64,000 nt of DNA from contig CAJQUW010004470.1 in the NCBI GenBank assembly GCA_907163375.1, forward strand, positions 310,001-374,000, written 5' to 3'. Positions 7,872 to 59,391 of this stretch are shown here, piece after piece. This stretch comes from Prostheceraeus crozeri (Eukaryota; Platyhelminthes; Polycladida; Euryleptidae). A program made the translations under genes and the position numbers. The stretch's first letter is position 1. Every line of letters starts with the position of its first letter. Below the pieces are notes generated by a model. That model saw only the letters and a list, made by a program, of their open reading frames with translations, was not told the DNA's origin and did no database searches.

Positions 7872-7872
7872 G

Positions 7873-17436: not shown

Positions 17437-17451
17437 CAGGGTGTCTACTGA

Positions 17452-17527
17452 GTGCTCTATGTGCACTATTTGGCGTTATGTGCTCTAGAGCACACTATTT
17501 GTGCTCTAATCAGAGTCAAGTGCTCTA
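17452..17527 (+). repeat. Subterminal GTGCTCTA motifs, left end
   Basis: GTGCTCTA at 17452, 17480, 17501 and 17520. Such repeated subterminal motifs usually are transposase binding sites. Confidence 0.7.
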
Positions 17528-17878
17528 TTTCTGACTTTGTTTTGAAAAATACTTTTTTGATTTGTTATTTAATGAAAAACATTGCATGACTTTCTCAGAT
17601 TTTGTTAAAATTGCAAATGATTCATGTAAACGTACTATAATTCGATTGATTCTTGAATATATTCATACCACCGTTATTGGCATATATTTGAATAGATTAT
17701 GAAAATATAACGTAAAAAATATAAATTTTCGAACTGGACTTTAATTTTATTGACTGATACATATCAAATTTTACTCCAAAAAAGGTGATGTTAGTCGTTA
17801 GCATTATTCTTGAAATTCGTCACGTATGACATTTTTGCCTTTATGTACCTTGGTATCAGTCAACTTACCGTATTTCTT

Positions 17879-17965
17879 TGAATATGAGACGCCCTTGAAT
17901 AAGGGACGCCCTCGAATAAGAGACGCATCCGTGAGAGGAAAAAATTTAATAAGAGACGCATGTAC
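17879..17965 (+). repeat. Short tandem repeat of GAATAAGAGACGC-type units
   Basis: About four imperfect units such as GAATATGAGACGCC, GAATAAGGGACGCC and GAATAAGAGACGC within the hAT-like element, upstream of its transposase. Possibly the remnant of a smaller inserted element. Confidence 0.5.
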
Positions 17966-18181
17966 AAAAAATAGACTGCTATAGACATATTACATGCAGG
18001 CTATTGTAATGTGGTAGCTACATCCGCCTGAGCGATTATTAGGCCTACTTATCTTAGTAAAATAAGTTAGTCTACTAGTAAATACCGGGTATCATGACCA
18101 ATATTGTATAATATATAAGGCTTCTTGTTGTTGTACATGCAGTACATGCATGTTGTACATATGTACATGCAGGCCTACTTA

Positions 18182-19646
18182 AGGTTACTTCATCTACCAT
18201 TTAAGGAGGCATTATACGGTAGCTTCCTTTGCATTTGGAGTCATGTACCGGAGTCATGTAAATTTCTGCGCTTGATGAAAAGTGAAATCAAGATGAAAAA
18301 CATAGACAAACATCTGCTGAACATGGGATCCTGCGGACTTCATGTTGTGCACGGGGCAGTGCAATTCGGATTCGAAAGTAAAGATGCGCCTTCTTGGGAC
18401 CTCTTTGAATTTCTTCGTGGTATTTATTATTTATTTAGTGATTCAACCGCCCGACGTGGAGAATTCAGTGCTGTTACAGGATCGGACGTTTTCCCTTTGA
18501 AATTCTGTTCAACTCGCTGGACAGAAAATGTACCCGTCGCAAGGAGGGCCCTCATGTTGATAGACTACTTACAAAAGTATGTGACCGCGATTAGCAACAA
18601 AGAGACACTATTAGCGGCCTAGAAACAAAATTGAGGACTCCTGCCTCGAAGTCATACCGTAGCGTTGTCAGCGCAATGCAGAACAATACTACGATATTGA
18701 CTGCTCGTCTTCATTTCTTTGTGCATCTTTCAGAGGATGTCAGAGAGTTTTTGACCAAATTTCAATCAAAAATGCCACTTGCACCTCATTTGTTCGGTGA
18801 GGTATCATCATTGTTTCGTGAATTATTATCCAAATTCATCAGAAAAGATACGATCGATGCTGCGGTGAGTGGCTCAGATCTTCTGAGCATCAAGGTCGAA
18901 GATCCGGACAACTGGACCACACTCGATGATCTAGAAATCGGCGAAGGTGCACGGAGATCACTTCAGAGCAAAAAGGTGAAACCCAATGAAGCCATTGCTT
19001 TCCGAAAAGAATGTAGGGCAATTCTGATCCTCACAGTAAAGAAAATATCGGAACGTTCTCCCCTCAAATATCAGTTTACAGAATTCTTGTCAGGATTCAA
19101 TCCTCGATTATTTCATCTGACTGATAGAACACGTCGACTTGCTCGCAGTGCGCTCACCACCTTGAGCGAATGTAATATCATTACGATACTTGATTGTGAC
19201 AGAGTGAATGCTGAATGGCGGAACTTTGTACTGGACGAAAACATTCTCGAAAGATCATCAAAGTATAAACCATTTAAGGATCGTCTCGACGATTTCTACA
19301 CCAACGTCTTGGATGAGGAAACTTATCCAACTTTGTCAACCATCCAACCGTGATTCAGAAGGTTCTCATTCTCTCACACGGGAATGCGGCTGTTGAACGG
19401 GGTTTTAGTGGTAATGCTTTACTTCTGAAAGAGAATCTTCATACTGAATCCCTCGTTTTGTTACGGCATGCCCAAGACGGAATTCGACGAGCTGGTGGAA
19501 CAACGGAGGTAGAATTTAGCGAGAAATTTCTTCTCTCCTGTCGAATGGCAAGTAACCGTCGTCGATTGGCGCTAGAACGAAAGAGAAAAGAACAAACGGA
19601 GAAGAAGAAATTCAATGAAGAACAGCAAAGACAACGAGAAGTCTAG
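18182..19646 (+). pseudogene. hAT-like transposase, frame-broken
   Basis: Three overlapping or abutting frames. The first has MGSCGLHVVHGAVQFGF, then STARRGEF and CSTRWTENVPVARRAL, matching the part of hAT-like transposases that follows the catalytic core (GSC.LH.VH, SPxRR, TRW.EN). It stops at 18622 and resumes one base shifted as ETKLRTPASKSYRSV. The second ends at 19353 and the third supplies LSHGNAAVERGFSGN, equivalent to the hAT dimerisation signature, followed by a Lys/Arg-rich tail. The N-terminal zinc finger and first catalytic Asp are not visible. At least two one-base frameshifts make this copy inactive. Confidence 0.7.
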
Positions 19647-20835
19647 AGGCGAAAAAGAGAGCTCTTGATGAAGAAAGAGCAATGGTAGTCTCAGAATTAG
19701 ATGCGAAGAGAAAGAAGCTCATGTAAAGTGTATTTGAGAATTCGTGGACCATTACTTTTCTTTCTATCCACCGTCACAACCTTTAAATATTTTCTGAATT
19801 TTTAAAAATAGAACCTTACGACATTCATATATAATTACACATCATTCATTCATGTATAATTCCCCCAACTGAATATTTACATTGTATATACACCTCATAA
19901 CGAGAAATGAGGAGAGCCTGTCTCAGTTAAAAGGGATATGAAATATAACCAGAGTTATTAGTACACTTGTACACTGATGACATAGCCTGTACGCAAATGT
20001 CCTCGTCGTTACTGTCTTAATTAATTTCCCTTTCAATTGGGGCCGGATCTCTCCATTTTTTTATAATAATTAACAATAGCACTGACTTTCATATAATTAT
20101 TTTCTACCAAACCGTAATTAAGGTTTCGCTGCATTATATAGTTTGAACATGATTCCAGCCCTATCACGAAATCATCGAGTGAAAATCGTTAGCCCTGAAT
20201 TATGATATTTAGAACATTAAAAGACTGCAAAGCCGTATTCAGACATCGATCAATTAAAAAATTTAGTTAGGTTAACGTTAATCAGTTTTGAAAAAGTAAT
20301 CATAGGTTTCTCGTTATCGATAGGTGCTTCAAAGCCGGCCGAATTATTCTAAATTAATGTATGTCATGCGTGCACCTTAACACTGCGTCGTGATTTTAAA
20401 GAATATGGTTTCAGTTTTATTTAGAGGTTCCATGTCATTCTCTTCATAATCTCATTGTAGCCCCTTCAATTATATTTGTGATGACTATGAGCTATTCCAG
20501 TTACAATCTTTATGGTTTTGTTGGCTATCATTTTTGTCTTCTAGATTGCTCTCATCATATATGAATTGTCATTGTAATTTGTTTCAAATGGATTGTTTTA
20601 TAGATTTTTATTTCATGTTTCAGCCGTTTTATCAGTTATGGTTTTTGTATTAGCTTTCTAGCAGTGATAATAATCATTTCTTTCCCTAAACAAGATATTT
20701 TTTTTGTGTCCTAATAAACGGGACAAATAAATGTCAAGTAGACCTACCGTAAGGAAGGTAATCATACGCGTAGAATTGCGTTCATCCACACAGCTAGATT
20801 TTGATCGTTCTCGGGCTCTATTGCGTTCAAAAAAT

Positions 20836-20897
20836 GTGCTCTATTTTGCATAAAAATGTGTTCTATTTTGCCCAAAATTGTGCTCTAAAGTGCTCTA
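20836..20897 (+). repeat. Subterminal GTGCTCTA motifs, right end
   Basis: GTGCTCTA at 20836, 20880 and 20890 and GTGTTCTA at 20858, same strand as those at the left end. Confidence 0.7.
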
Positions 20898-20933
20898 ACA
20901 CCACCTTGAAATTCCAGTAGAGACCCTGATGTA

Positions 20934-22630
20934 ATGTTGAGTCTGACAATAGTTCTGCACCTGATAATAGTTTAAAAATACCATTCTATAAGAACGCTGT
21001 TAAACTTCCTAGCAGTATGTCAGAAGAAAAAGAATTAAATTTGCTCCTTTTTAAAGAAGAAATAAAGAAAGCTGTTAAATCGGAAATGCAGCATGTTGAA
21101 AATAAACAGTCGTACTTTGACATTAACAAAAGTATAAAAAGCAGTAAACATTTTCTGAAAACTAATGATCTTACTGTAGTGCCAACAGATAAAAGCAATC
21201 GACTTTGTGTGACAAAAATTACTGATTTCGTACGTCGAAATAATGATATGTTAAATGACAGCACGACATATAAGCCTCTGAATAAAAGTAAGAAATGCAG
21301 TTTGGAAATGCAAGCTAACAAGATTGTAAATAACATACTAAAAGATAAAGTAAGCGATTCAAATTTGAAACGTATGCTTGTTTCCGGATCACAGCCGTCT
21401 CAATTTTATACTCTTATCAAAGATCACAAAACAAAAGATGAAAATAATCAATATCCTCTACGGCCTATTGCCTCGGTTATCAATAACCCAACCAACAAGA
21501 TTGATTGGTTTTGCGGCAGAATACTAAACCAACTTGCCAGTTTGGTGCCTGCGCACCTTTCGAGTTCTTTAGAATTTATTAAAGAAATAAGCAGGCGAAA
21601 ATTTGATAATTTGTGTAGTGATTCTGTGTTCATTTCCTTAGACGTTGTCAATTTGTATCCCAGCGTTCCTATTGACACTGCTTTGGAGATGATAGAGAAT
21701 TTTTCAAAAAAGCACTGGAACGTTATTAACAACTTCAACATTAGTTTGGACGAATTTATGACCATGCTAAAATTTATTTCATATAATTATGAAATCACTT
21801 TTAATGAGAAAATCTATTTACAAATGAAAGGAGTCCCCATGGGATCGCACTATGCGCCTCCTTTCTCTATAATTTTTTTGAACTACATTGAAGAAAAGGC
21901 CATTTCTAAATTAAAATCAAACATCAATTTTTCTAAAATCATTTACAAAAGATACATTGATGATTGTATCATTGGGCCTATAAAGAGAAACGATAACATC
22001 TTCAATGAGATACTTGAAGTCTTCAACTCTATTAACTACAATATAAAATTCACTCTCGAAGTTCCAAAAAATGGTGTTCTCAACTTTCTTGACTTGAGTA
22101 TTTGGGTTGATAATTGCAAGGCAGTTCACCAAAAATATACAAAAGAGCTAGCCTCTGGTAACACTTTAAAAAAAGACAGTTGGCTTCCTAATTCAGTAAA
22201 AACCAATTTCCTAAATCAAAAATTCAAAGCCCTTGAATTAAGGAACAGCAATCTTCTACCAAATGAGTACCAGTGCAATTCAATAAGTAAGTGCGAAGAT
22301 AATTTATTGCGTAATGGTTACTCTCAACAAGACATAAAAATGGCTCAGAAAAATCAAATAAAAAAGAAATACAAAAAAGACGGAAAATCCAATAAGTGTA
22401 CTCTAAAACTTCCTTTTGTTAGTGATAGTCTTATAAGAAAAATAAACTACAGTATTCGCAAGTACAAATTAGATATCAATTTTGTTAGTACCGGTAATAA
22501 AAAGCTCCGTAATGTGTTCAGTCATAGACCGATCTATAAGCACAATAATTGTGACCTATGTGACAAATTGCCTTCTTATTATGTCTGTGATGTGACTTGT
22601 AATTTATCAATTCACTTGCAAATTTTGTAA
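20934..22630 (+). CDS. Penelope-like reverse transcriptase
   Basis: The first ATG in frame is at 21017, but the frame is open from the insertion scar at 20934 and continues from 17436. Residues (from 21017): YPLRPIASVINNPTNK about 147-162, SLDVVNLYPSVPID about 206-220 (motif A with the catalytic Asp), KGVPMGSHYAPPFS about 268-281 (motif B), IIYKRYIDDCIIGP about 310-323 (motif C, YIDD), and LNFLDLSIWVDN about 347-358. This is the telomerase-related PLE type of reverse transcriptase, which copies element RNA onto a nicked target. The ORF stops at 22630 after a frameshift inside the Cys-rich linker, where the endonuclease should continue. The reverse transcriptase core itself has no missing key residue. 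Confidence 0.85.
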
Positions 22631-22915
22631 TGGCCAATATATCGGAAAAACTGCTCGTCCATTTCATCTAAGATATAACGAAGACAAAAACAGTAAAAAA
22701 CAGTATTAAATATAAAAACAATTCAAGCGCTTTAAGCGATCATAGAAATATTTGTAGCAATGTCAATGGCATTGACGATTTTAATGTAGAAATTTTAAAG
22801 CGTGTGCGTGATTCGGTTGAGGCAAGTTTGGTGGAAGCTCGTTTAATTAATTACCATCAACCTTTGATGAACAGGCGTCACGAGACTGTTGCAACGAGAA
22901 TTAGAGTTTTGTAAA
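22626..22915 (+). pseudogene. PLE GIY-YIG endonuclease, frame-broken
   Basis: Continuing one base out of frame from the reverse transcriptase, KFCNGQYIGKTARPFHLRYN is the CxxC-QYIGKT-R core of the PLE GIY-YIG nuclease. The frame breaks again near 22705, then DDFNVEILKRVRDSVEASLV and ARLINYHQPLMNRR follow in the last ~110 bases, ending at a TAA at 22913-22915. The C-terminus overlaps the right terminal repeat. At least two indels inactivate it. Confidence 0.7.
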
Positions 22916-23060
22916 TCACTCTTTCATTATCTGTGCTAGTTCTGCCACGACTAAGCGTCTGGACGCGAAACGTCGGCACAATTATATTTTATTGAATTTT
23001 ATACAGTCATACATCGGCAGTAATTTTCACTCGGGAGAGGTTTTTCTATTGCTATCATCG
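22903..23060 (+). repeat. PLE terminal repeat, right, with hammerhead-like stem
   Basis: Inverted relative to 16881-17041. It contains GCGTC-TG-GACGC (22955-22966) followed by GAAA (22967-22970) and bracketed by CGAC/GTCG. In active PLE hammerheads CTGATGA precedes such a stem; here the position reads CGACTA, so it is a degenerate version. Confidence 0.6.
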
Positions 23061-23073
23061 GATGTAATGAATG
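23061..23073 (+). repeat. Target-site duplication of PLE, right copy
   Basis: GATGTAATGAATG, identical to 16837-16849. Confidence 0.8.
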
Positions 23074-23363: not shown

Positions 23364-25017
23364 TAGAGCTGATCATAAAAAAACGGACCACCTAAATTTC
23401 GATGAAATTCTATAGATTCTCATGTCTTCCAATCGCATCGCACAGCAACGTTGCATTCTCGGCTTTAAAATGATGGGTGGCCGATGTGACAAAATATGAC
23501 AAGATGTGACATTTTTTCATCTCAAAATAAAATGTGACATAATGTGTAATTTTCATTTTTGGTGTGACAAAATGTGACAAATTCACGTAACCAGAAAATA
23601 ATTTGACAGAATTTTTTTACGGTAGTTTGACATAGCATAATGAGGTTTAAAGTCACAGAGTAGCATCAACTTCGTCTGAGGAAACAACGACAACTTTATT
23701 CTTTTATTTTGATTTGTACTCGGAATATGTGAGACAGATGTTTCTCCGTGCTCCCATTGGTGACTTACACTTCCGCCAGGTAAATCGTGATGCCACTAGT
23801 TCGCTTGTTTAAAGTTGACTTTGAGCTTGACAGCCCAATTGCAACATTCATTCCACGTGGTCATCCGTTATTCGATTGTCATTTCCAGATCGCAGGAGTC
23901 CTTGCGAAGTTATAGTTCCGATGATGCACGCAATCCAAGGAATAATAGCAATTGTAACAAAACAGTGATATTTCTTTGCTGAAAACACAATTATGAATAC
24001 AAGTGCTCTTGTTTGTACGAACTTATATTGTCTGTAAATTCATTTTGTTGAATTTATTCCGAATGCGTGCTTATTGTATGCCATCAAAATGTACTCAAGA
24101 CATTAAAAATAATCATAATTGCAATAAGACTACAACGTTTGAGAGTAATTTTTCCCTTTAAACAAAAATAAAGGTGTCACAGTCTTACCCATGGTTTGTT
24201 TCGCTGCTGCCACAAATCTCGGGGCAACTGTTAGATATCAGATCAATGGCAATTTCTATGAAACTCCTTAAATGACAAGAAGTAGTAATAATAAATTAAA
24301 GGTTTCTTGATCTTGTCCCATTATAACGCGCTTGACATGCATTCATCGATAGGGCAGCAAAAAAGGCAATTTCGAAACCTGCCAATTTCCTGCACATCAT
24401 CACGTCAAAATTTTTACATATGTTTCCATCAGGATGTTGCGAAATGTGACATTTATGTCAATGGGCATGTGACAAAATGTGACATTAACGCCCATCGATG
24501 TGTGACGAAATGTGTCACAGATCCTAATGTGGCGGCCCACCCCTGAAATATGAAAATCGCTCAATTTACAAACCGCAATTTTTGAAAAAGAAGACATGTG
24601 AGTATGAAAATGAATTAGCCACGGGGAGAACAACGAGCATTTTCTGAGCTCTCTTTTGACTTACTGTTCATCAAAATCGGTGAATTAACGAAAAATTTAT
24701 GATATCGTAAAGTCATTACAAAATCATGACCTTCTTGATTGAAAATGTTATGCTCTCACTTTTTCATGAAGAATGTTCATGTTTGGTATCCTCTGAATCC
24801 TTGCGATGTGAGGAGTACGAATATGTGAATTATATTCATATAAGTTCAATAGTTCTTTTTCAAACTTCTTCATTTTTTTTAATTTCCGCAAAAGTACGCA
24901 AACCATGAAAGGTGAACGAAGGTTCAAAACGGCAATTAGCGAAGGCATGTCTTTGCTCTCTCATAGCAGCTGCCGATTGTTTAACTTTCATTGTTTGCGT
25001 ACTTTTGATCAGCTCTG
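23364..25017. mobile_element. Mariner/Tc1-like non-autonomous element, interrupted
   Basis: TAGAGCTGATCA at 23364 is the inverted match of TGATCAGCTCTG ending at 25017 (one mismatch), and TA flanks both (23362-23363, 25018-25019). The interior has no transposase. A second element (23474-24545) is inserted in it. Near the right end AAAAGTACGCAAACCATGAAAG (shown by its ends AAAAGTACGC and CATGAAAG, 24890-24911) is inverted at 24985-25006. Confidence 0.6.
23474..24545. mobile_element. Non-autonomous element with GTGACAAAATGTGAC motifs at both ends
   Basis: The right end, GGCGGCCCACCCCTG (24531-24545), is the inverse of a hAT-like CAGGGGTGGGCC terminus; the left end is a decayed match (GATGGGTGGCC, 23472-23482). 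TGTGACAAAATGTGACA-type motifs lie at 23485-23510 and 23562-23580 on the left and 24468-24485 on the right, all same strand. There is no transposase inside and I could not define a target duplication. Confidence 0.5.
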
Positions 25018-25524: not shown

Positions 25525-25975
25525 CCGTAAAACCTGGAATTCAACCGTCACTCTTACGTGGTAGTCTATTACAGGTGGCCTTCTATTAGAGGGTGGCCAA
25601 TTTTATCATAATTCACCCTATATGAAGGCTCAACACTTAGCAAGTTGGTATACTGTATCTTCATGTAGTATATAACACGCAAGAAAACAAGATTACCAAC
25701 AACACAAATCGTGATTAACATCACAGGCACTTAATGATAAATTTAAATCAATTATCAATAATGAAGAAGCCAGGTTTGTTGTCCAAACAGCTGCTGTCCT
25801 CTTACAGCGGAGCATGCAACGAATAAGTGATTGCAAATAACATCCCGACGGACAGGTCTTACACAAATAGACATCCTGGTACTACCGAAATATGTGAAAT
25901 GGCGGTCTGATTGGAGGGAGGCGGTCAATTTTTCAGAAGCCTCGTCTATGTGGTAGTCTATTGCAATTTTACGGT
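25525..25975. mobile_element. MITE with CCGTAAAA termini (copy 1)
   Basis: CCGTAAAACCTG at 25525 and TTTTACGG ending at 25974 are inverted. TGGTAGTCTATT occurs at 25559 and 25951 in the same orientation. A diverged relative with the same termini lies at 60141-60849; internal words such as AAGGCTCAACACTTAG are shared. Confidence 0.5.
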
Positions 25976-36927: not shown

Positions 36928-37287
36928 AAAGTACGATGCCAATCTCGATTTTTGAGACGGAGCATAACCTCGACTCATGCGAGCATTAGTACTGTGATTC
37001 AGTCTGTGAAGGGCTTCAACTTTCATGCTTGCAATGTTCTGAAATGTTGTCGTCATATTCATCGATGCTAATCATCATCGTTCTCATATATCGAGCAACT
37101 TATCCATTGTAGAACCTCTAGCTTATTGCATTACTTCGGATCCGGGCTAATGAGATTTGTGCAACATTATGCAAATTTCAATGAAATAAAAGTACTGGTA
37201 TGTGACTTGTTTTAACAGGTGGGTTTTGCCTATGTTTTCAGGTCTGTTTAAATAGGATTTCAACAGGGTGTTTAAACCATATCCATA
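36928..37287. other. Non-coding stretch, no gene seen
   Basis: AT-rich DNA, no credible ORF. Confidence 0.5.
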
Positions 37288-38257
37288 CTGTGTGTACTCT
37301 TCCGATTTTCCCGGAAGTTGTACGATTTTTCGGGGTTTTTTGGAAAATTGTTTGATTTTACAATTTTTCGTTAAATTGCACGATTTTTCGATGATTTTAT
37401 TGATATTTCAGCCAATCGTTCGATTTTTCATCGATTTTATATAATTGTATTAATTTTTCGAAATTAATGTGCTCGATTGTGGTTAGGAATTTTTGCTATC
37501 GAATAAGTCACTTTCTTATTGCATACTTGAGGTGTGAGCTTCAGTCAAACGCATTTTAGCAATGCGGTTGCTTCTCAGAAATCAAAAGTTGTGGCCGTCC
37601 GAGGCGTCAGCATAGGCCTATCCACATTAAACGCCAGAATTATCGCTTCCAATGATGAAGCTTGGCTCTCATGTGTGCCCCGACTGAGACTTCAACACAA
37701 ATAACGCCTGTAAATTGCCATCCACCCTGTGATCGCTATTACGCAGCTCTGATCCCACCCCTGAAATTAATCTCATCCTGTTAAGGCTTGCGACTGGTCC
37801 CCAGTCCAACTCAGCCGTCGCCTTTAAAGTCGTAACTGTTCAATCGTTATCTACACCTCGACGTAAATTTATGGTGAGTAATGCGTGAGCATACTCGTAC
37901 ATGGGCAAAAATACAGCGATAAAGAAATTAAACGACTGAAGTCGTGTTGTACGAAGGAAGTGTAGGAACGCAGTGGCATTGCTTAGAAAATCATATCTAT
38001 TATCAGACACACAACCAATCGGCTTCTTGTTTTATTTTTCTATTGTTACGTTTTGTTTTGAATACATTATACACTTTTTAGATTATGTTTGTTTTTAGTA
38101 CTAGAATGCATAAGGAGTAGGAAATTGCAGGGAATTGAGTAGGAAATATACAATTTTATTGAAACCATAAACAATTTTGAATTGTACGATTTTTAAGGGT
38201 TTTTGTACGATTTTCACGGAAGCATTGTACGATTTTTGAAATTTTGAGCTACACAGG
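37288..38257. mobile_element. Non-autonomous element with GTACGATTTTT motifs at both ends
   Basis: CTGTGTGTACTC on the left and GAGCTACACAG on the right form a weak inverted pair. ACGATTTTT-type motifs cluster on the left (37320-37440) and GTACGATTTT recurs at 38184, 38205 and 38227 on the right, all on the same strand. No coding capacity and no clear target duplication. Confidence 0.45.
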
Positions 38258-38552
38258 TATGCATATGCCACACTGTCAGCAACCTTCAGTAAACTTAGGC
38301 TTTTTCAGTCATTCACACGACGTTTTGTCTGTGATATGCTTCACAATGCTACCCACCAGCAAGACCAGCCAAGCATTGCATCGTTTCTGCATGAGATCTG
38401 ATGAAATGATTCAACTTCTTCAGATGAAGGCATTCATCTCATCCATAGAAACCACGCTTACATTTTCTAGATAGAGTTTCACTTCTTCGTCAAGGATTTG
38501 AAGTTACAAAGTTGTGTTTTGCTGTCCAACGTGTCATTGATCTCATTAAAAG

Positions 38553-38560: not shown

Positions 38561-40335
38561 TAGGGCTGTTGGCGGTTAAAATTTTCTCAACCGGTTAACC
38601 GGCCTGCATGCAAGTGCTCAGCTAGTGATGTATACCGTCAAAAGAAAATCTTATTGTGACTTAGCTATGTTTTATGTTATGTATTATTAGTATTTATTAT
38701 TTATGTATTTGTATTAACGTATTACATGTGCAGTTTAATTAAATATCTGATAAAATGGCATTTCAATAAATACCTACCCCAATAAATAACATAGTTTCAT
38801 AGGCCAAGGGCAAAATTTGAATTTTTGTAAATATTCGCACATGTAACCTATTTGTATTGCAAAAACATTTTGAAAGCATAAGCCAAATAGACGGCCAGTT
38901 TTTTGCTTTAAGTTCTGTTCCATCTTTCATTGAATTACATCTTTATATGTTTGCATGCAAAGAATTTTATGCAAAAAAATATTGATATGGAATCTGAAAA
39001 AAAACAATTATTCAGCTTTATCTATTCAATATGTAGATAGGCCATAATTACCACAACCACAAACTTTATATAGTCACTCACATAATCAATTTGCATGCAT
39101 GTACAGGGTCATCAATTATGTAGATAGCAAAAAATAATAGCATTTGCGTTTCCTAGAAGGAGAACAAAAACTTGCTGCTATTCCTTAGTATCGATTAGCG
39201 CGTATCGCCAGTGTCGGGTGCTTCTCGCAGCTTTCTATCCATCAATGCAAATGTTATACATTGACATCTATCGGAGCTAGCAAGTAATGCAACATGTGAT
39301 CCGTCTTTAATAGCACCAACCCAGTTTGCCTCAGAGCCAATAGAGAAATATCGCTTGAATTGTCTTTGGTTTACCTCACCAGCGTTGAATCAGAATTAAA
39401 TCAGAGACGACGATTTGTTATAAGAGCTATCAGTTTTACTGATATATCAGTTAATGCCTGAAATTCCTAAAATTTGAGTGTTCAGCTAAAATTCCTAAAA
39501 TTTGCAGATATTCCTAAAATTATAAAAGAAGTTATGTAACGATAAATTAAGTGGATAGCATGGTGAACATGGAATTTCAATGCCTTCAGGTAGATTACTA
39601 AACAGCCCATGTAAATCACATATAATTGTTAAACTTCAACCCAGCTATCATTCAATATGAAAAATTAAAAAAAAATAATACAAGTTTTTTCGCTGGGACC
39701 CTTCTTGCATAAACAGCTTTGTGATGACGTGAAGGCATCAGGAAGCGCGTATTCCATTAGTTACGATGAGACAACTGCCATCACAGTTAGAATTTACAGT
39801 CGCTTTATGGAGCTCACTCCTTCAAAGGTATCAGTGAGATATTTGACCTCGTTGTTCTTAGGAGAGGTAAGCAGGGAAGCAGTTGCTCCTGCAATAATTC
39901 ACACGTTACCGAAGTGTGGGTTATCTCTTAGCCTCTTGATTGATTTGAGTAGTGATAGACCTAATGTGAACAAGACGATTAAGCGAATGATCAATGATAA
40001 AGTCACAAAAACCGCCTCCACCGGTATTTTACCAACATCGTTCTGCTCTTTGCGCATTGTTGATAACAGTTTACGAAAAGGCCTTGACATTGGGAAGTTG
40101 AAGATTTCATTCAAGATGTTTTTTCTTGGTTCAAATATTCGGCAAGCAGAAGACAAAGTTTTCATGGTGTTCAAGATTTCTTGGAAGTTGAGCGCACTTC
40201 TTTCAACCGATATGTCCAGTCCCGATGGACAACTTTAGCTGAAGTTCTTCAAAAATGCATCTCGCAGTTGATGAGTTTAAAAACATGCTTTTCGCATCTG
40301 AAGGACAAAAGTATGCTGAATTCACCGAAGTATGA

Positions 40336-41889: not shown

Positions 41890-44466
41890 TTAGAGAATAA
41901 TGAAGTTTCTGAACTCGCGCTGGTCTGAAATTTATATGCTGTTGTTGAAGTCTGTCGGGTCTCTTTTAAATGAGTTCTTACGACCTTTTCAGACAAAGAA
42001 GCCAATGATACATGCTATGCATGCTTCGATTGATGAGCTTCTCGGAAAAATGTATCACCGGTTCATGAAAGTGATGTGCTGGAATCGTGCAATGGATCAT
42101 TCCCGATGATGATCCTTCCAAATCAGAAGATCATAAGGTTTTCCTTGGAATTGATCCTGGGAATGAGACAAAGAAGAAACTGAACGAATACCACTTTCCA
42201 GATGTGAATTCATGAAGAAGAATAGATTTTTCCTGAAAATGTTCAGGAAAATCCAGCATCCTCACACCGACTAATTGACCCGAACTAATAAAACAAAATC
42301 CAAGGAAAACTATCGAAGTAGTTGTGGAAGACCGATTTCGCTATTTTGAAAAAAAGCTTTATCAATTCCACTTCACAGTAAGATGACAGGACTGAATGTG
42401 ATGATACCTTGATGAGTGAACGTTAGACATGTCTCATGAAATTGAGAGCACTAATTATCAATTCGTCAAATAGGTGGTGCTTAGTGCATTACGCTTGGTG
42501 GTTACAATGTTGCAACTTGTTTTAGACTTCAAAACGAAAGTACCTTCACAAGAGGATACAAAGCAAATGCCATGTTCAATGTTTACACGTTCTGGTGAAT
42601 GAATCAAGTATATGAATGTATAGAACTAAATTTATATACACGCGCAGTCTTTGTTTGGTTGCCATATGGGAGTTCTATGTTATATTCTAGCAAACATTAG
42701 TATCTCTCTCTACTCTTCTTCGCACGGATTGGTTTTTTATGTAAAACATGTTCAATAAATTGGGTTTTTTTCACGACAAGAATTAGGCGCACAATTCACT
42801 ATGCGACACATGAGTCATTGAAAGCGACACTTTATTACACACAAAATTTATCGGTTAAAGTGCATGAACCGTAGTAAAACAAATTTACAGAAACTTTTCT
42901 GCAATGTGTAGATTTAATCGCTTTTAACTACTAGGTGTAGGCCTTCTTTAAAAGGAAGGAAAAAATTTGCCTACAAAAGACCGTCCTACATCTAACAGCC
43001 ACAAATTTTTTTCTATTATTTCTATTATTTTTCACAAATTATTTCTAGACTAATGGGGTGTAGACAATGAAATGTTTCCAAAACTTTTTCTCCGTTGACT
43101 TCACGACGTAGAGCAATGCAACTCATAGAGTAAAAAAACGAAAGATTGAAAAGATGGATTACCCAGGAATCAATCAGTCACTAAGTAAAATTACTAAAAG
43201 CGTTAGATGAAAAGTCCGAAATGTTGGTCTCAAAAATGTCATAAAATTGAGTCTTTTGTAGACACCCTGCATTTTCAAGAACAGTTTCACACATTTTTAG
43301 TGAAATCGAAGTCTATTTGTTTTGTGCGAGTATGTTACGATTTTCCACTTAGTTTCTTTCAGGTCGTAAACGTGAGTGATATTGGGACGAGTACTTTTGA
43401 ATAATCCATCGTTTATCATCACTTTCAAGAAAGAATTTTGTGAAAGATCGGATTTTCTCTCTTATGTCCAGTCGTGCCAACTACCACGCAGTGATATCAA
43501 CGTATGTTCAAGTTATATGCTTTAGCAGTGACATAGACTACATTTGATGTACAATGGTTTTTCTTTCTATGATGGGTCTGTGCAGTTTCTTGAACAAACC
43601 TCTGACAAATAAGTAGTCTATTTGTCAAGACTGATGGTCGCAGTTATAGCATGGACAATCTGATTATGATATTTTTCTAGGTTTTGTTACTACGCTGTAT
43701 GATGGAAAATTCTCGTTAAGCCACTCCACTATAAGTGTATGTAGAAATTCACTTGGAATAGTAAGTTAATTTATGTTGTTCTTCATTTCATTTAGAAAGT
43801 GTCACAAGTGAGAAGTTATTACATTCTTAAGAGCTCCTAAAAGGTCTTATTTTTAAACAACTACAGTGTATGATATCACTATGAAAATTTGCTTTTTCAT
43901 TCCTTTCTCATGTACTGTTTTACAATACTAAGATATTCTAAAATAATTTACACTTTTTTGAAATAAAATCAAATTACAGTGGGGCCTACTGCTACATTTT
44001 AGATACAGTGACTTTAAGCACAACAGTGAATTTTCTTTCCACGTAAGTGTGTCCAACATTCAAAACCTTTAACTGAAGATAAACTATTAGGCCTACATTT
44101 TGAACCACGTGAAAATGCTAGCTATGCAGTTTGGTGTGTTACGGGAATATTACTGACTGATGGCGTACAGCTCTTTTGAGAGTACTACCATTAATCAAAT
44201 TTTAACTGCGTAAATTAAAAGCGTTAATTTTACCCTCCTGCGTAGACTTCTTCCTCTGAGCTGGCCCGACCACTGATACAGCATTACTTGCTAATGATAT
44301 ATGATACTGCAATATTTGAGACAAACGTAGGCCTATTATGAAACAATTTAAGTTAAATACTTAAAAATGTGCTAACCTAATTTTTTTGGTAAACCAAAAA
44401 ATTTGATGTAGCATGCGATCACAGGCCTGGTTAATGTAATCATTAACCGGTTAACCGCTAGCCCTG

Positions 44467-47280: not shown

Positions 47281-48677
47281 CAGTGGTGGCCATTAATTTG
47301 AGACCACGTAGATTTGGCCATTAATTTAAGACCACTTATCGATTTCTGTTACTGCTCCATACTTTTTTTAAGTTATTGAAGCTTTAGTGACACGATGAGT
47401 CACTCATCATTCTTCTGATAGTTAGCTCCACGTCACAACCTTGTTTAGGGACGCCCACTGTCCTGGTTGCAAGACATTCCAAAGTATAAATACAAATACT
47501 CACCGATGAGCTGTCACAATCCGAGAATGGGGAAAGCAAAGAGTATCAAGCCAACTGTGAGAGCGCAGATAGTCGCCTACCATGAAAATGGTCGTAGTGA
47601 ACGTTATATTGCGAACACATTCAATGTATCAAAGACGGCTGTACATCAAGCCATTGTGAAGTATCGCGAAGAGAAATCCTTAAGTGACCGTCCACGATCA
47701 GGTGCACCGAAGAAAAGAACAGCGAGGGATAGCCGCCTTATCCGCCGAGAAGTCCAAAATCAACCATTCATTTCAAGCAATTCTGTTTCCAGTGTTAGCT
47801 GATCATGGAACTGTATTATCTCCCACGTCTGTTCGTAGGCATTTGGCTCATATGAATCTTCGCTCGTACAGATCCGCGAGAAAACCATTACTAACCGCAA
47901 GAATGAAGAAATCTCGACTCGCATGGGCCCGACGCTATAAGAATTGGACGATGGATCAATGGAGCAAAGTTCTTTGGTCCGACGAGTCAACTTTCCAGTT
48001 TTTCAAACGGTCTGGTCCTGTTCGACGACCTAGCGGAGAGCGCTACAATCCTCGATTTGTGACTCCAACAGGAAAGCATCCTCCTACGAAAATGGTGTGG
48101 GGATTCTTCAGTGCTCAAAGTCGTGGAGGTCTCACGTTTATGACAAGAAACGAAAGGATGAGTCAATCCAAGTACGTGGAGGTATTGCAGGAGAAGCTGA
48201 TTAATTAATAATATTGTCACAACTGCGAAATATTTCGGCATGACTTTGCTCCATGCCAGAAAGCGGCATCAGTGACAACATGGCTTTCTACCAACAACAT
48301 CGAGGTTCTCGATTGGCCTGGCAACTCACCAGATCTGAATCCAATGGAGAACCCCTGGCAATCCGTCAAACTCAAAGAGTGTCGAAGAAATCTCCTTCCA
48401 CATTGAGTGATCTTCAAAATGCTATTCGAGAAGCATAGGTGTTAGAAATATCATCCGACGTGTGTCAAAACTTCGTGACATCAATGCCAAGAAGAATTGC
48501 CGCAGTGATGAAAGCTGGTGGTGGAACCACCAAATATTGATTATTTCATTATCCTTATAACAAAAATAATGGAAGTCATTAGTTTTCAATCTGCTGAGGA
48601 GGGATTTGATTAAAAGCCCATTTATCACAACTTAACTATTTACTTGCATTGTGGTCTTAAATTTATGGCCACCACTG
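47281..48677 (+). mobile_element. Tc1-like transposon
   Basis: Begins CAGTGGTGGCCATTAATTTG, ends with the inverse (ATGGCCACCACTG, 48665-48677), and is preceded by TA (47279-47280); the right flank reads CA instead of TA. Two terminal subrepeats GGCCATTAATTT(G/A)AGACCAC lie at the left end. Length 1.4 kb is normal for Tc1. It contains a full-length but frame-broken transposase. Confidence 0.85.
47506..48540 (+). pseudogene. Tc1 transposase, frame-broken
   Basis: Likely start ATG at 47506 or 47527. The N-terminal half is a paired-type DNA-binding region: VRAQIVAYHENGRSERYIAN and VSKTAVHQAIVKY, then SDRPRSGAPKKRTARDSR. One frame later, TSVRRHLAHMNLRSYRSARK, then the catalytic region: VLWSDESTF (first Asp), RHDFAPCQKAASVTTWLS (second Asp), and WPGNSPDLNPMENPW (third residue, Glu), so the triad is DD34E-like and preserved. 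The end is SMPRRIAAVMKAGGGTTKY, typical of Tc1. Frame changes near 47770, near 48215 and near 48440 prevent translation of one product. All catalytic residues survive, so it is a fairly young loss. Confidence 0.85.
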
Positions 48678-48781: not shown

Positions 48782-49534
48782 CAGGGATGCGTAGTCCTAT
48801 CATTTTGATAGGACTCCGACTCCCACTCCGGGTGGCAAGTATATATAGCCTAGTTTTTTTTGAAAAAAACTGGTAACCTACATCATAGATCATTATAGGC
48901 TTACCTGAACCTATCTTTAGTGATCATTTCTGTATCAATTGTCAATCATTTTCGATGAAAGTTTATCAAATGTCGCTTTAAGTTGGATGCATGCGACCCG
49001 CCTCCTCCCATCTTCTTGATGTGTGCAAACGGTTCACACTTCACACGGTTTTCTCCAGTCTCCACCAGGCAGGAAAATCCTTATACTTTTCCAAAAAATA
49101 TGAGTACACTTTCGATTTTATTATGCGCTTTAGAGGAGAAATCACACACGATTAACGTGAGGGTAAGAAGTAATGTTCTCAAACAAACTAGTATTTCATT
49201 TTTGTCTCTGACGTGACCTTTGGTGCGTGTGTGTGATCGAGGCTAGGAAGACTTGTCTTCTCTACTAAATCACCGAGTGAAAAACAATCCTTTTTTTTAC
49301 TGTCACGGTTCATTCCCTCAACTATGACAAGCTTTGCATACAGCAGTGTCTCTGTACTTTTGTTTGACGGAGAAAGTTGACATCAAGACAGTGACAGCTA
49401 TGCATGAGGATAAATAATTTGATTGTATTATATTTCTGGTCTAGTTATAGACCTGAGTCCTATCATTTGATAGGACTCCGACTCCTATTCCAGCGAAAAT
49501 GATGGGACTCCGGGACTCCGACTCCGCATCCCTG
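48782..49534. mobile_element. hAT MITE with GGACTCCGACTC motifs
   Basis: CAGGGATGCG (48782-48791) and CGCATCCCTG (49525-49534) are perfect inverted ends, flanked by the 8-bp ATTTGATG duplication. GGACTCCGACTC lies at 48811 near the left end and at 49473 and 49513 near the right end, all on the same strand, with a TCCTATCA...TGATAGGA hairpin beside two of them. No transposase inside. The perfect duplication shows it is a recent non-autonomous insertion. Confidence 0.8.
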
Positions 49535-51424: not shown

Positions 51425-54400
51425 ATGCTTGTAGCCATTTCCTCGCTTATTCGTCACCTGACGACGGACTTGGAAAGTCTGATAGCTCTTGTTGTATATT
51501 TATGAAATTTTGTTGAGCTAAATTCCACGTGAAACAGGACACACATGCTGTTTTCAAATTCAAAATTATACTCAAAATTACACAGTTTCTTTTGCTGTGT
51601 CATGAAGTCCATGAAATCGCTTACTTGATATCATTCTGTCACTACCAATTAAATAAAAACAACCTCAAAATCATTTAAGTATTTTCTCGGTTTTTGACGC
51701 ATTATTAGGCTGAAAAGCATGGAATTTCAGAGTTTTTTTTCATGATATGACGTGATTGTGTGTTGGAAGTGATAATTCTGATGCTATTTATACCCGCGAG
51801 TCAATAGATAAGTTACCTGCCTTGGCTATAGGATGATCTAAAAGTCATGTTACTAAAATGTAGCGAGCGAACAAAAAAGTACTTTTCTGCAACATTACTC
51901 ATGACTCAGATACAATTTGTTGTTTATATTTCATATTTTCCTTCTTCGATCTGTTGCTGATAACATGCTGCCGCAGCAGAAACACAGGGGTTCCCTAACT
52001 TCTGCAAATCATCCTCAAAACATGTAACGAGCGAACGCGCTCGCCCGTTACATGTAGGCCTATTTAGTTCAATTGCTGGAAAGTTATATTCATACCATGC
52101 AGCCTATGAAAAATTTAATGCCAAGCAGCTAAACTATTAAAACATTGCAGACTTATCATTATGTCGTCATTTATGAGCCATATACACTCTCATTTTTCGC
52201 TGTCTGATTTCATCTATGTTTTAAGGAACTCTGACCCTGAGCAAGCGCCATGGTGTTGTCATGTGCATGCTTTTTGAAATTATTTAGTTGGTGTCTTATC
52301 CACAATTATTTAAAAGAAGACAGCCTTTATATCACTCTTGACTTTGAAATTTGATATGCCGGGTATTTCCAATCGTGCAAACATGCAACATGAAGCGATA
52401 CACTAGTTTTCAGTCCGATAAGATTTCTTAAACTGTGTAGTTGAGTTCCAAATTGCATTGCCTTTGCACACATCTAATCAGATATCTACGAACCACCACA
52501 TCAGCATGCGGCCTGATTTGAAATAAAGATCGATGCCAGCATGAGCACACAGCATTAACATTTCAAATTTATCATAGCTCTGGCAACAACTTTCTGTAGG
52601 CTATAATGCATGATTTTGTAAGGCTTTCTATGTCCACAGGTTAATAAGTTTCACGAAGCAGGTAATTATTTTCCCGATTGGAAATTATTAACCTGGTGCT
52701 CACTTCTCTATGGAAAAAGTCATGCATTATAGCAGATAATGCATAGATTTCTTCGGTAATTATTTGTCATAATAACCTCGAGCCTTCGGCTCTCGGTAAT
52801 TATAGCAAATAATGACCTCAAATCTATGCATTATCTATTACATAATCTGGATGTCCATGTAATAAAATGCCATTACTGTACAGTTTTTAAGTTGACCAAG
52901 CAGGCACATCGAAATGCCTATCACTTTTGATCGAGGAAAATGTTCTCGGCTTGAGAGATAATGAGATCAGGTACTCAAAAACAAAGAAAAAGATATACTT
53001 CCGATGCAAGAACAAAATAAAAAGAGTATAAACCAAAGTACGGAGCATTGAACAAAACTGCGTGATTGGAATTTCACAGACAAGAGGAAATATGGAATTC
53101 TGGACAACTTGAACGAATCAATCGACAGCATCTGCTCCTTCAAGTCGCTGAACTCTTTCAAGTCGATTTTTGCGAGTGCATTATTCGTGTATCAACATAT
53201 GCGTAGGCCTACATCTATTTCTGGCTTTAACTGAATCATATCATAATTACTTTACGTGAGGAGCATATGCTTGCATTTCGATAACACGTTACAAGGCAAT
53301 ACTGTCATTCACAACTCATTGTTTGTGCAAAAAATTGTAATGTAAAAAAGGATAATAATGGGATGTAACGAGCGAACGCAAAGTAATTAGCGAGCGAACA
53401 GCATTCTACACAATTTCTTGCACAGAAGATGGGAGTTTTCACTCAACAATTGATGCGTGCTTATTTTATGCATTATCTCTGATAACTACAGAGGTTTTTG
53501 AAGTCAAATGCGGTCTAACAAAGCAGAGTTTTTGAATTGAAGAAGAGATAATCAAAGTCATGTCAGAATTTTGTAACGAGCGAACATATTGCAAATTGGT
53601 ACATTGTGAGTATACTAAAGGTTCGCCGAATACGATACTTAGTTATTTGATTCTATGACAAAATGTTGACAAAACTACGCATGAAAAGATTTATGATAAT
53701 AACTTGACAAATGAGTAGAGCAGCTGTAGGTGCGCACAGTGTAACGAGCGAACAAATGGAATTTATCTTGAGAACGTACTTGTCGAAGTATTAACATACA
53801 TTTTGTGTCTGCTTTTGCTATATTTTCGTCAGTCGATTCCCTCCACCTCATCTCGTTCCTTATTTCTAAGTCTATGAAGTATTGCATCTTTCCCTGTTCC
53901 ATCGCCATGGTTTCTCCTTTTCAATGTTAACTTTCTGTTGAAATCTAACGGAGTGCAGTTGGCACCATTCACTAAATGAATATTTTAATTGTCATTCTGT
54001 CTCTTGAATAAAGAGTCAGCCGTTTCTGTAGCATATAGTTCACAAGGAAGATGTCATCACGACCGTACTAGTTCACCAAGACTATTTCATCAGCTTTGAA
54101 TAAGTCATCGTTGTCATGTCCACATTCATTTAATGTAAATGCTATTTTCACAAACTTTTTGAACAGTTTCGATGACAACTTAGATAACTCACTTGATGCT
54201 GGATCCTATCTGTGACATGATGACAATCAACTCCTAATTAATCCTCGCAATAACTGCACGATAGCTGCTGATTAGCATTATACATTTCCGTCTGTCGGAC
54301 AGAATGTATGATCAGTTTTCTGATAGTTTATTACAAGCGTTGTAAAAGACATCAACTAATTTGCAAGCACTTCGTAGCAGAACTGGCACTAATTCATAAT

Positions 54401-54640: not shown

Positions 54641-54699
54641 TCCTTTGAAATGTAGGGTCTGCGACACTGAGCATGCTGCCTTTCAGCTCGATATTTTAT

Positions 54700-56928: not shown

Positions 56929-57108
56929 GTGAGTATTTCCTCATATTTTTGTCAAGATGATGCATTCCTCATTATTCAAAATAGTCTGTTGGGAATCGGA
57001 ATGCAGTCTCACATTCTATTCAATTGTCATGAATTTTAATGAGTGGTGTTATGTTACTTACTGAAACAGTTGGTAGGGTGGCCTCATTACTGAATGACAC
57101 ACAAGGTT

Positions 57109-57162
57109 ATTAACAACACTGAGATTAAATACACGATAGATCAGATTGCCATGCAAAAGATG
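57109..57162 (+). repeat. 54-bp direct repeat, left copy
   Basis: Matches 57407-57460 with one mismatch. It abuts the 3' end of the tRNA-like sequence. Confidence 0.8.
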
Positions 57163-57236
57163 TGCGGCTGGTAGGATTCGAACCTACGACCAAGGTTAAC
57201 TAGACCTGTGCTTTAACCAACTGAGCTACGAGCCAC
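57163..57236 (-). tRNA. tRNA-like sequence, Thr(AGT)-type anticodon, possibly a pseudo-tRNA or SINE part
   Basis: On the minus strand it has A box TAGCTCAGTTGG, B box GGTTCGAATCC, a perfect 5-bp T stem (GTAGG/CCTAC), an anticodon loop CTAGTTA (anticodon AGT) on a four-pair stem, and an acceptor of GTGGCT with AGCCGC (one G-U pair). One extra base between acceptor and D arm and a mismatch in the anticodon stem argue against a working gene. No run of T follows within the next bases. Confidence 0.45.
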
Positions 57237-57406
57237 TTATGCGTCTTTGTCAGTTGGCAGGATCAAACCCTCACCACCACACATCAGTTGTCAAGGCAAT
57301 AATAATGAATGAAAAAATAACTCGTCACAATTGTGACCGCCGACATTAAGGCAAGTAGCGGGGATCGATTGTCCACCAAAGCATCTTAAGCCATGTCGTG
57401 AATGCA

Positions 57407-57460
57407 ATTAACAACAATGAGATTAAATACACGATAGATCAGATTGCCATGCAAAAGATG
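57407..57460 (+). repeat. 54-bp direct repeat, right copy
   Basis: Second copy of 57109-57162; the unit spacing is 298 bp. Confidence 0.8.
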
Positions 57461-58330
57461 TTATTCACTTCATGAGCATTTATTCATCATGGCATGTTAA
57501 ATTACTGTTGGTATGCAGGGCCTATGATACAAGTTTTCATAATATGGCAAGGCATTCGGATAACCAGCAAATTTCCTTTAGTGTAAGATGACGTCGAAAA
57601 TACATAATATGCAGAATTGTCATTTAATTAGCAGATTCACGGAAATCCACGGTGTTCCCTATAATTTAGCCGAATTTCCCTTTTCTCTCAATGGCCTCTC
57701 ACACGAACTTAAATAGGCTTAAATGATCATCAGATATTCATAGAGTTGGAAATCTTTATCAGTCAGTAGTTTCATCATGTGATGTTTTTGGTTTGACACT
57801 CCTTGCACCGTTGGTTGTATGAATGTCGATGACAAGCGGTTTGGTGTGAGAATGGACACAAATGAAATCAACAAAACCACACCTCTACTTCATGAACTTT
57901 TGTTTTGCGTTGTCTGATAGTCGTTGCAGATACTATGAGAAAAGGGGTAGGACTGTTGTAGAACAGAGAAAATGGCATGCTAAGAAGGCATCTTATTCTG
58001 TGGAATAGTCAAACTACTGTTCTAATATTTTCCAGGAGCTTCTAGTGGTTTCTTTTTGACCTAGTCAACAGCGACCTCTTTCGTAGCAGTCTCACAGACC
58101 TCTTACTTAACAGTGCGGTTGCCGATGTCTCAGAGATTGCCAAGATTCTTAGTTGCGCATTTACTTACCGCATCTCTATATGAAATATACATAATTAAAT
58201 TTGAGTGTATTATTTACATGCTGCACCGTACAATGATCTTATGCACAGCAATTTTCTGTATCTGATGGAAGAGGAAGCAAATTGATTAAACTGTATATTG
58301 TATATTCATTTCAGTCATACGATTTTAATC
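57461..58330. other. Non-coding stretch, no gene seen
   Basis: AT-rich, no credible ORF or repeat end. Confidence 0.5.
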
Positions 58331-58338
58331 GAGTAGTA

Positions 58339-59391
58339 CAGTGGTGGCAACGCGTGGCCAGCCACTGCTTCCTATAGCCAAAGTGGCACGCGGACAGTTT
58401 TTGAATCGGTGATTTGAAAAAGGCCCAGTCCGCCTTTCACCTTTAAAAGATACTTCTAGTCTTGACGTTGATATTCCTAAGGATTTCCAAAAGTATTAAT
58501 TAATGACTTATTGAGCACTGATGGCACAAAAAAATCGTTATAATGCTCAAATGATGTTCCTTTCGCAATCAACATCTTCTCAAGATGAAGGTAAAAGACA
58601 GTCATTAACTGCGTGAATACTAAATCACATGCTGTTCGATGCCTTGTTGAACATGTTTCACCACACAGTAAACAAAGTTACAATTAGCCTATAAATACGT
58701 AAAGTAGGCTACGCATGAAGGAGTACAGCCTCATGAAAGTATGTGATGGGCCCTATTTATAAGTCACCTTTCTTTCAAGTATTCTATTTGGATTTTATGC
58801 TAATTTTTAATTGCATCAATTTTGTACTAGAATGGCATTATCGCACGATTATCGTTGGGATAGCCTATGCGTGGTTTTCGAAAGTTTATGTTTCGGTAGA
58901 GTAGACCTATGTCCACTTAGGAATGTGTGGCCTAGCCACACGTCATTTGTTCTTTTAAATTGTGTGGCATGTAGACCTATGCCGATAGATGTAGGCAACT
59001 ATAGATCGTCATTTAGATTATAGACCGTAGTTAAAGACCGTCATTTTTCGATGAAATAGGGTGATATCATTCTATTAACAATGAGGTCATATGACCGCTT
59101 ATTTTCACAAAAGGCCTTCCGCAATTTGTTTGGTTTATTCACATTCCATTATTCATACAGATTTTAGAATGTAAAAGGCAGCCGCTATGTATACAATGCT
59201 CTAGATGCAAATACAATGGAATTATGTACTACCACTATGTTAAGTGCAGCAGTCCTTAAAATTACTCTCAAAGGTGCTCATGAAAGGAATTTTCGACATA
59301 CCTATTTCTGCCTTTTAAAATTGGTGGCCCGCGAGTTCTCTCGCTGGCCATTACTTGTGGCCCTCCATCCCAACTTGGTTGCCTACCACTG
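58339..59391. mobile_element. Non-autonomous hAT element
   Basis: CAGTGGTGGCAAC (58339-) and GTTGCCTACCACTG (ending 59391) are inverted ends with one indel. Flanks GAGTAGTA (58331-58338) and AAGTAGTA (59392-59399) make an 8-bp duplication with one mismatch. GTGGCACGCG (58383) and GTGGCCCGCG (59324) are same-strand subterminal motifs. No transposase. A lone related terminus, CAGTGGTAGGCAA, lies at about 40972. Confidence 0.75.

Follow-up and report, generated by a model that had tools for sequence, protein, structure and literature searches.

Several transposon families in the genome of the polyclad flatworm Prostheceraeus crozeri carry, near both tips, a short word repeated in one main polarity along the element, which makes it face inward at one tip and outward at the opposite one. 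This layout is seen in three elements, E1, E2 and E4, of a 64,000-nucleotide stretch of contig CAJQUW010004470.1 (positions 310,001 to 374,000, forward strand; hereafter the window), and in two families, L107 and L106, found elsewhere in the genome by homology to the E1 transposase; for L106 it is seen by tip patterns. The initial annotation had claimed a same-strand word at both ends of at least six elements (E1 to E6). This holds above shuffled controls for E1, E2 and E4, for the latter two also in genome copies, and weakly for E3; copies of E5 and E6 bear their words in both orientations. That the words differ while the layout is kept was borne out: the word is GTGCTCTA in E1, TGTGACA in E2, GTACGATTTT in E4 and GTACTTA in L107, a family that was not selected for its layout.

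One-way arrays in E1, E2 and E4

The three elements and their arrays lie as follows (MITE, miniature inverted-repeat transposable element).

17437..20928, plus strand: E1, non-autonomous hAT-like element, tips CAGGGTGTCTACTG / CAGGGTCTCTACTG, 5-bp target duplication ATGTA
17452..17527, plus strand: E1 left array, four forward GTGCTCTA (17452, 17480, 17501, 17520) and one reverse at 17486
20836..20897, plus strand: E1 right array, three exact forward GTGCTCTA (20836, 20880, 20890) and the variant GTGTTCTA, no exact reverse
23472..24545, plus strand: E2, hAT-like MITE, start approximate as the left tip is decayed in the window; copies start CAGGGG and have 6-bp duplications
23485..23579, plus strand: E2 left array, TGTGACA at 23485, 23505, 23533, 23563 and 23573, no reverse
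24445..24519, plus strand: E2 right array, TGTGACA at 24445, 24468 and 24478, one reverse at 24513
37284..38261, plus strand: E4, hAT-like MITE, tips CATACCTGTGTAC in copies; window flanks CATATC/CATATG, 5 of 6 alike
37321..37428, plus strand: E4 left array, TACGATTTTT (up to one mismatch) at 37321, 37359, 37379 and 37419, no reverse
38185..38237, plus strand: E4 right array, TACGATTTTT (up to one mismatch) at 38185, 38206 and 38228, no reverse

Orientation was scored de novo, blind to the words of the initial annotation; k-mers common to the first and last 200 bases of an element, with the 16 tip bases cut off, were counted as direct (same strand) or inverted (opposite strand) and compared to 1000 dinucleotide shuffles per element. 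A second form of the test used 150-base ends and included controls from the window. At k=8, E1 gave 25 direct matches, a level reached by none of the shuffles, and 6 inverted ones (reached by 14 of 1000, a slight inverted excess); E2 gave 36 direct (reached by none) and 2 inverted (434 of 1000); and E4 gave 33 direct (10 of 1000) and 5 inverted (50 of 1000, again a slight inverted excess). Since the E4 ends are T-rich on one strand, a direct excess exists at k=6 even in its shuffles, and the 104 direct matches at that length, compared to a shuffle mean of 64.8, were reached by 50 of 1000. In the 150-base form, two window elements with longer terminal inverted repeats lean the opposite way at k=8: the Tc1 element gave 3 inverted and 0 direct matches, and an element at 40335 gave 22 inverted and 8 direct, the direct count also being above shuffles.

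The initial annotation had counted GTGCTCTA four times at each end of E1, which is right for the left end; the right end has three exact words and a variant. The lone reverse word at 17486 sits within a palindrome. The right array is repeated alike in two genome copies (L093 and L097). Seven E1 regions were fetched, and in the two copies whose right tip was read the target duplications are ATGAT and CACAT, both of 5 bp. The left ends of 20 out of 40 scored matches (167 candidates) are identical over all 124 bases. All six long words first quoted are confined to their own elements in the window except GTGCTCTA, of which seven of eight forward copies lie inside E1 and one at 60042, and the window holds no exact reverse copy of the quoted words of E2, E3, E4, E5 or E6. 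The long words are not background in this DNA; the GTGGC core of the E6 word is common.

The genome assembly searched comprises 2.05 Gb in 14,165 contigs. For E2 there were 46 genome matches (40 of 759 candidates scored) and for E4 likewise 46 (40 of 128). Core words were counted over the outermost 200 bases of the copies retrieved. In the seven of eight E2 copies with both ends present, TGTGACA occurs 38 times forward and never reversed at the left end, and 25 times forward and 6 times reversed at the right, a total of 63 vs 6; the middle parts are nearly devoid of it (0 forward, 1 reverse in 5149 bases). The long E2 word TGTGACAAAATG is forward at both 23563 and 24468. Seven other copies start CAGGGG and four of the seven copies with both ends have an exact 6-bp duplication; that of the window copy itself is not clear. 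In the 17 of 30 E4 copies whose two tips were recognised, TACGATTTTT with one mismatch allowed gave 60 forward words at the left end and 48 at the right with none reversed (108 vs 0), and again the middle parts hold almost none (0 forward, 1 reverse in 12029 bases). The exact word GTACGATTTT stands at 37320 on the left and at 38184, 38205 and 38227 on the right of the window copy, whose boundaries are corrected here. The polarity remains clean in copies whose left ends fall to 75% identity with the window copy. Exact 6-bp duplications flank 8 of the 30 fetched E4 copies; one copy, L044, instead has an exact 8-bp duplication.

Surroundings and further copies of these elements were also recorded. 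A reverse-transcriptase element encloses E1 (17000-17436 and 20929-22944), its open reading frame (ORF) starting right past the 5-bp duplication, and perfect 43-nt inverted arms (17000-17042 / 22902-22944) bracket the E1-bearing piece. Overlapping E2 left-end matches about 68 bp apart form a tandem array of that end on contig C6585 (124075-124589). A second E4 copy lies about 25 kb past the window on the same contig (C3710:399151-399916).

Relatives of the E1 transposase and facing tips

E1 holds three pieces of a transposase remnant, and another fragment of the window resembles the same clade.

18119..18622, plus strand: ORF piece 1, like by eye to the GSCGLHVVHGA..FCPTRWTEN stretch of the relatives
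18595..19353, plus strand: ORF piece 2, 252 amino acids
19317..19646, plus strand: ORF piece 3, containing SHGNAAVERGFS
39669..40238, plus strand: fragment resembling the clade (YDETT ... SSDRPNVNK), 20% identity to L107 in alignment

The AlphaFold2 model of the 252-residue ORF has a mean predicted local distance difference test score of 41.5. A genome search with this piece gave 153 matches (150 scored of 2331 candidates), many of 26-40% identity and with long open frames. Six relatives (L106 to L111) were fetched by transposase homology alone. Both ends were resolved in one of them, L107, a 2,959-bp element on contig C13277 with a 759-codon frame, TTATT duplications (5 bp) and tips CAGGGTGGC.AGTG. 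Here GTACTTA is forward six times at the left end and four times at the right, with no reverse copy, and k=8 scoring gave 74 direct and 0 inverted matches (shuffle mean 1.5; none of 1000 reached 74).

The L106 protein is 51% identical to that of L107, and its decayed right tip has three GTACTTA in the same direction as in L107 relative to the coding strand. Right tips in contigs C7665 and C11654, with the L106-family tip CAGGGTGGCGACTAC, have the word in the direction of L106. From single copies, a right tip could be called for L106 and probable right tips for L108, L109 and L110; no pair of ends was obtained for L106 or for L108 to L111. Short terminal inverted repeats (TIRs) starting CA(G) are found in E1, L107 and the L106 clade. 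By eye, GTGCTCTA of E1 and GTACTTA of L107 share GTRCTYW, both on the coding strand of the transposase.

An N-terminal finger, C-x2-C-x16-H-x5-H, was seen in all four proteins that retain their N-terminus (L106, L107, L108 and L111); as a Pfam BED domain it gave a single weak match, in L108 (E 0.28). After the finger, L106 and L107 have in order the blocks FDExxN, MDGPxVN, C.TRWxEN and SHGxAxVERGxS, which may be a hAT-like DDE arrangement with its late glutamate in a VERxFS-like block; in L111 the first block has FGE. No relative was confirmed in viral contigs (searched with one protein and with a two-row alignment), GTDB genomes or plasmids.

The layout was then followed across the genome with tip patterns. 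For the L107 subclade the pattern was tip CAGGGTGGC, then 2-32 bases, then GTACTTA (left type) or TAAGTAC (right type); it gave 99 left and 59 right matches, corresponding to 56 and 53 distinct tips, while reversed-pattern controls gave 0 and 5. Each tip was paired with the nearest facing tip at 150-10,000 bp. All 34 facing pairs join a left-type to a right-type tip, compared to a mean of 17.1 and a maximum of 28 in 10,000 label shuffles, and two 63-bp pairs, under the length limit, are also of opposite type. The pairs include size classes of 2.0, 2.9, 5.8 and 6.4 kb. The C7665 element, whose right tip matches L106, falls in the 5.8-kb class, and therefore the L106 family follows the rule too. 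For E4 (tip CCTGTGTAC, then 8-34 bases, then GTACGATTT or AAATCGTAC) there were 29 and 41 tips, with 2 and 1 in controls; all 13 facing pairs within 25 kb are of opposite type, 12 of them under 10 kb, including one of 64 bp, and one of 19.6 kb. Many tips were left unpaired (41 of 109 for the L107 subclade and 44 of 70 for E4) because only exact words were allowed. No like-tip facing pair was found among the 47 (34 + 13). Since copies share descent, these counts show that like-ended derivatives are unseen, not that the polarity arose repeatedly. Three stretches of 63-64 bp with two facing tips each (C1966:90719-90782, C10118:62533-62595 and C10328:75190-75252) are possibly extreme mini-elements.

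E3, E5, E6 and further features of the window

The three other elements of the initial annotation, with no strand assigned, are these.

25525..25974: E3, ends CCGTAAAA/TTTTACGG, boundaries approximate; TGGTAGTCTATT at 25559 and 25951
48782..49534: E5, hAT-like MITE, TIR CAGGGATGCG, exact 8-bp duplication ATTTGATG; words both ways in copies
58339..59391: E6, hAT-like MITE, TIR CAGTGGT, 8-bp duplication GAGTAGTA/AAGTAGTA; words both ways in copies, palindrome at the right end

E3 agrees weakly with a one-way layout: at k=8 it has 3 direct matches (reached by 46 of 1000 shuffles) and 0 inverted (1000 of 1000). Its search gave 45 matches (40 of 369 candidates scored), and the core GTCTATT is forward, with no reverse, in six fetched copies, the left end being visible in one only (L090); the window copy holds one reverse GTCTATT. 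E3 was considered as a hAT element and set aside, its tips being a misfit and a by-eye look for a target duplication having found none.

E5 and E6 have the 8-bp duplications and CAG tips that are classical hAT traits; the duplication is exact in the window copy of E5, 7 of 8 in that of E6, and exact in copies L072, L077 and L082, the latter two belonging to E6. The E5 word GGACTCCGACTC stands at 48811 on the left and at 49473 and 49513 on the right, and the k=8 signal of the element is strong both ways (16 direct and 10 inverted, neither reached by any of 1000 shuffles). Its core GACTCC has no reverse copy in the window element. Reverse words appear at both ends of the family because each end has a hairpin-like pair, the reverse half of which carries mutations in the window copy; the right end of the E5 majority sequence, being misaligned, was left out of account. 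The E6 word GTGGC(A/C)CGCG is at 58383 and 59324; its GTGGC core is common background (38 forward and 33 reverse across the window, of which 7 and 2 inside E6), and k=8 gave 0 direct (1000 of 1000 shuffles reach this) and 2 inverted matches (187 of 1000). The majority sequence of E6 has a perfect right-end palindrome, GTGGCCCGCGAG...CTCGCGGGCCAC, that is mutated in the window copy. With these mutated halves the initial annotation saw a cleaner rule than the two families have.

The window also contains reverse-transcriptase ORFs, a Tc1-type transposase and several MITE-like elements. A long inverted repeat at 36390-36942 has 254-nt arms, 94% complementary, around a 45-nt loop (DNA fold -290 kcal/mol, z -44); an Rfam scan of 36000-37200 gave no family at gathering score. 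Another, at 7298-8602, is nearly perfect, and its mirrored ORFs (7515-7946 minus, 7831-8385 plus) encode nearly the same peptide. The element at 40335-41890 has 38-bp arms (95%); inside it are GTGTAAACG-like words, several of which share a strand. Over 1.9 kb at 51863-53753 there are four forward ACGAGCGAAC and two forward GCGAGCGAAC with no reverse, which may be another one-way array, although its ends could not be located. The Tc1-type element (47281-48676) has broken transposase frames (HTH_Tnp_Tc3_2; DDE_3 under its cutoff), and a 55-bp direct repeat, 98% identical, lies at 57109-57163 / 57407-57461, 298 bp apart. A scan for target site duplications plus TIRs in the window and fetched loci (362,512 bases) gave 63 candidates. 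Those that convinced belonged to the families already known, to L107 or to long inverted repeats, the others being chance-like. One further candidate, L028:118-1405 (TTGAA duplication, longer TIR), had 2 direct and 5 inverted matches at k=8, with no preference for direct ones, and was set aside.

Readings of the layout and known systems

The reading that we favour, and hold to be fairly probable, is that no fewer than five of the six elements are hAT-like transposons of the cut-and-paste kind, mostly non-autonomous, in which arrays of subterminal repeats back up the short TIRs, and that the one-way arrays of E1, E2, E4, L107 and L106 are read by the transposase finger and make the ends non-equivalent. 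By analogy with Hermes, the hAT transposon of Musca domestica, a BED-like N-terminal finger would read the subterminal word. As the word runs in opposite directions with respect to the two tips, the assembling transposase would meet two non-equivalent ends; these would label left and right and favour left-right over like-like synapsis, and both arrays would have been retained in non-autonomous copies because both are needed. The polarity would, in other words, tell left from right. It is possible, though still doubtful, that the polarity goes further and is a true end-identity code in which finger domains bridge the two ends about a two-fold axis lying at right angles to the synapsis axis; same-strand arrays would then set left and right parallel with their tips in one catalytic dimer, like ends would be forced antiparallel, as in the dead-end Hermes left-left complex, and the families with 5- and 6-bp duplications would have made the code strict.

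Several observations weigh against the favoured reading. E5 and E6 break the one-way rule: in all four other E5 copies scored (of eight fetched, the rest having no recognised right end; 40 of 2870 candidates scored), GACTCC occurs at least once reversed and at least twice forward at each end, and in six of eight E6 copies (L080 and L084 lacking a right end; 40 of 597 candidates scored) GTGGC is found 9 times forward and 3 times reversed on the left and 9 and 5 times on the right, 18 vs 8 in total, with one copy (L078) having more inverted than direct matches at k=8 (9 and 5). Inverted words as common as direct ones in copies would speak against the layout; E6, with its palindrome, and E5, with reverse words at each end in 4 of 4 copies, go part of the way, while E2 and E4 clearly do not. 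One E4 copy, L049, also lacks a direct excess (3 direct, 4 inverted at k=8). Only L107 of the six relatives gave both ends, and the provisional end regions of L109 have no strand preference (35 direct vs 37 inverted at k=6). The 34/34 and 13/13 measure descent, with non-autonomous copies inheriting a layout, and not independent choices; the sample that was truly unselected comprises two families, L107 and L106. The hAT Pfam models found no match in 8 clade protein pieces at E up to 1, or in 4 pieces at E up to 10, where HMMER filters drop most matches above 0.1; a 7-row clade profile had no match in the PDB at E up to 10, and single-sequence PDB searches gave weak unrelated matches only. Because neither the Pfam nor the PDB profile searches lend support, the term used here is “hAT-like” rather than “hAT”. 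In Hermes, the right-end repeats are unbound by BED domains in the cryo-EM structure, a left-left element is not rescued by changing the first three repeats of one end to resemble the right end, and a donor with mutated inner left-end repeats keeps about 70% activity (PMC10368747).

Alternatively, the layout may be neutral history, one array having long ago been copied to the other end or grown by slippage in one orientation and then inherited without function, with only word number and tip distance mattering; we regard this as rather unlikely. MITE copies do inherit their layout, the by-eye likeness of GTGCTCTA and GTACTTA fits common descent within the clade, and mixed polarity is tolerated by E5 and E6, yet E2 and E4 obey the same rule with different words, E4 copies stay clean despite their divergence, and like-tip pairs are absent. 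The proposal of the initial annotation, one mechanism with same-strand inner sites in all six elements, is improbable; the quoted words are forward in all six window copies, but the copies of E5 and E6 have both orientations, the window copy of E6 has no direct excess and no superfamily could be assigned to E3. What survives of it is a common mode of end recognition, made plausible by the N-terminal CxxC..H..H finger that four E1 transposase relatives bear. That the words are transcription or host-factor sites instead of transposase sites is very improbable: the Hermes authors do raise the possibility of a host factor acting on the ends past the terminal 50 bp (PMC10368747), but the words are concentrated in the outermost 200 bp or so of each end with nearly none mid-element in E2 and E4, and non-coding MITEs need no promoter at both ends. 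Chance or base-composition skew can hardly be credited. The T-richness of the E4 ends, with its k=6 excess in shuffles, points that way; at k=8, no shuffle reached E1, E2 or L107, which contradicts it for these three, and 10 of 1000 reached E4.

The initial annotation had set asymmetric ends apart from other transposons, a contrast that was overstated, as hAT elements are known to have asymmetric subterminal repeats. Hermes, whose N-terminal BED finger binds left-end subterminal repeats (STRs), has STR2 to STR7 of the left end (LE) listed as antisense and STR1 to STR5 of the right end (RE) as sense (PMC10368747). Given the stated alignment of LE-STR1 with RE-STR1, the repeats appear to be read tip-inward and hence to lie on the same absolute strand at both ends, making the arrays largely one-way; this same-strand layout depends on the inferred tip-inward frame, taken from the text alone (PMC10368747). 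Symmetrised Hermes ends lose most or all activity, little being left for left-left and none for right-right; the left-left complex is antiparallel and transposition-incompetent, and its authors conclude that end asymmetry is required (PMC10368747). Like Hermes, E1, E2, E4 and L107 (and L106 by tip patterns), not E5 and E6, have short TIRs backed by repeated short sites in arrays that are opposite relative to the two tips. Unlike them, Hermes has the site AAG(T/C), an exceptional LE-STR1 that forms a high-affinity palindrome with STR2, and an 8-bp duplication (PMC10368747); the rule-following families here differ in their duplications of 5 or mostly 6 bp, their longer words and their transposase, which has no detectable match to solved structures.

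Other hAT elements resemble these families in part. The Herves transposase (Anopheles gambiae) binds a motif repeated at both ends, asymmetrically, a likeness that covers repetition, not relative orientation (PMC3143072). Maize Ac/Ds has multiple short transposase-binding hexamers (AAACGG) within about 200 bp of each tip, a likeness of site crowding, not orientation, and unlike E1, E2 and E4 it makes an 8-bp duplication (PMC3260210). Subterminal repeats have been called a defining, “haphazardly” present hAT feature (PMC4890040), and the repeats of Kat1 reportedly have different polarity at its two ends (PMC4763223). In the results viewed from the open-licence literature, which includes neither subscription papers nor Repbase Reports, a strict rule of this same-strand kind was not found. 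The need of hAT transposons for two different ends is not fully explained, even though asymmetry is shown to be required in Hermes (PMC10368747), and a clean, conserved polarity, with many copies, young tips (E1) and an open frame (L107), opens the role of polarity to direct testing; annotation might profit as well, through an easy criterion for calling the ends of elements and for pairing MITEs with their partner elements.

hAT groups with 5- and 6-bp duplications, hAT5 and hAT6, are on record (PMC12730594, citing Kapitonov and Jurka 2007). E1 and L107 resemble hAT5 in their 5-bp duplications and tips starting CAG, and E2, like the majority of those E4 copies whose duplication is clear, resembles hAT6 in its 6 bp, with CAG tips in E2 and CA in E4, non-coding copies being all that was read; the 8-bp duplication of L044 departs from hAT6, and both likenesses concern duplications and tips. 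We judge the one-way arrays to be a strict variant of the known hAT subterminal repeats; what is added here is that the families making 5- and 6-bp duplications are strict in this respect and two 8-bp families from the same genome are not, as observed in five window families and L107.

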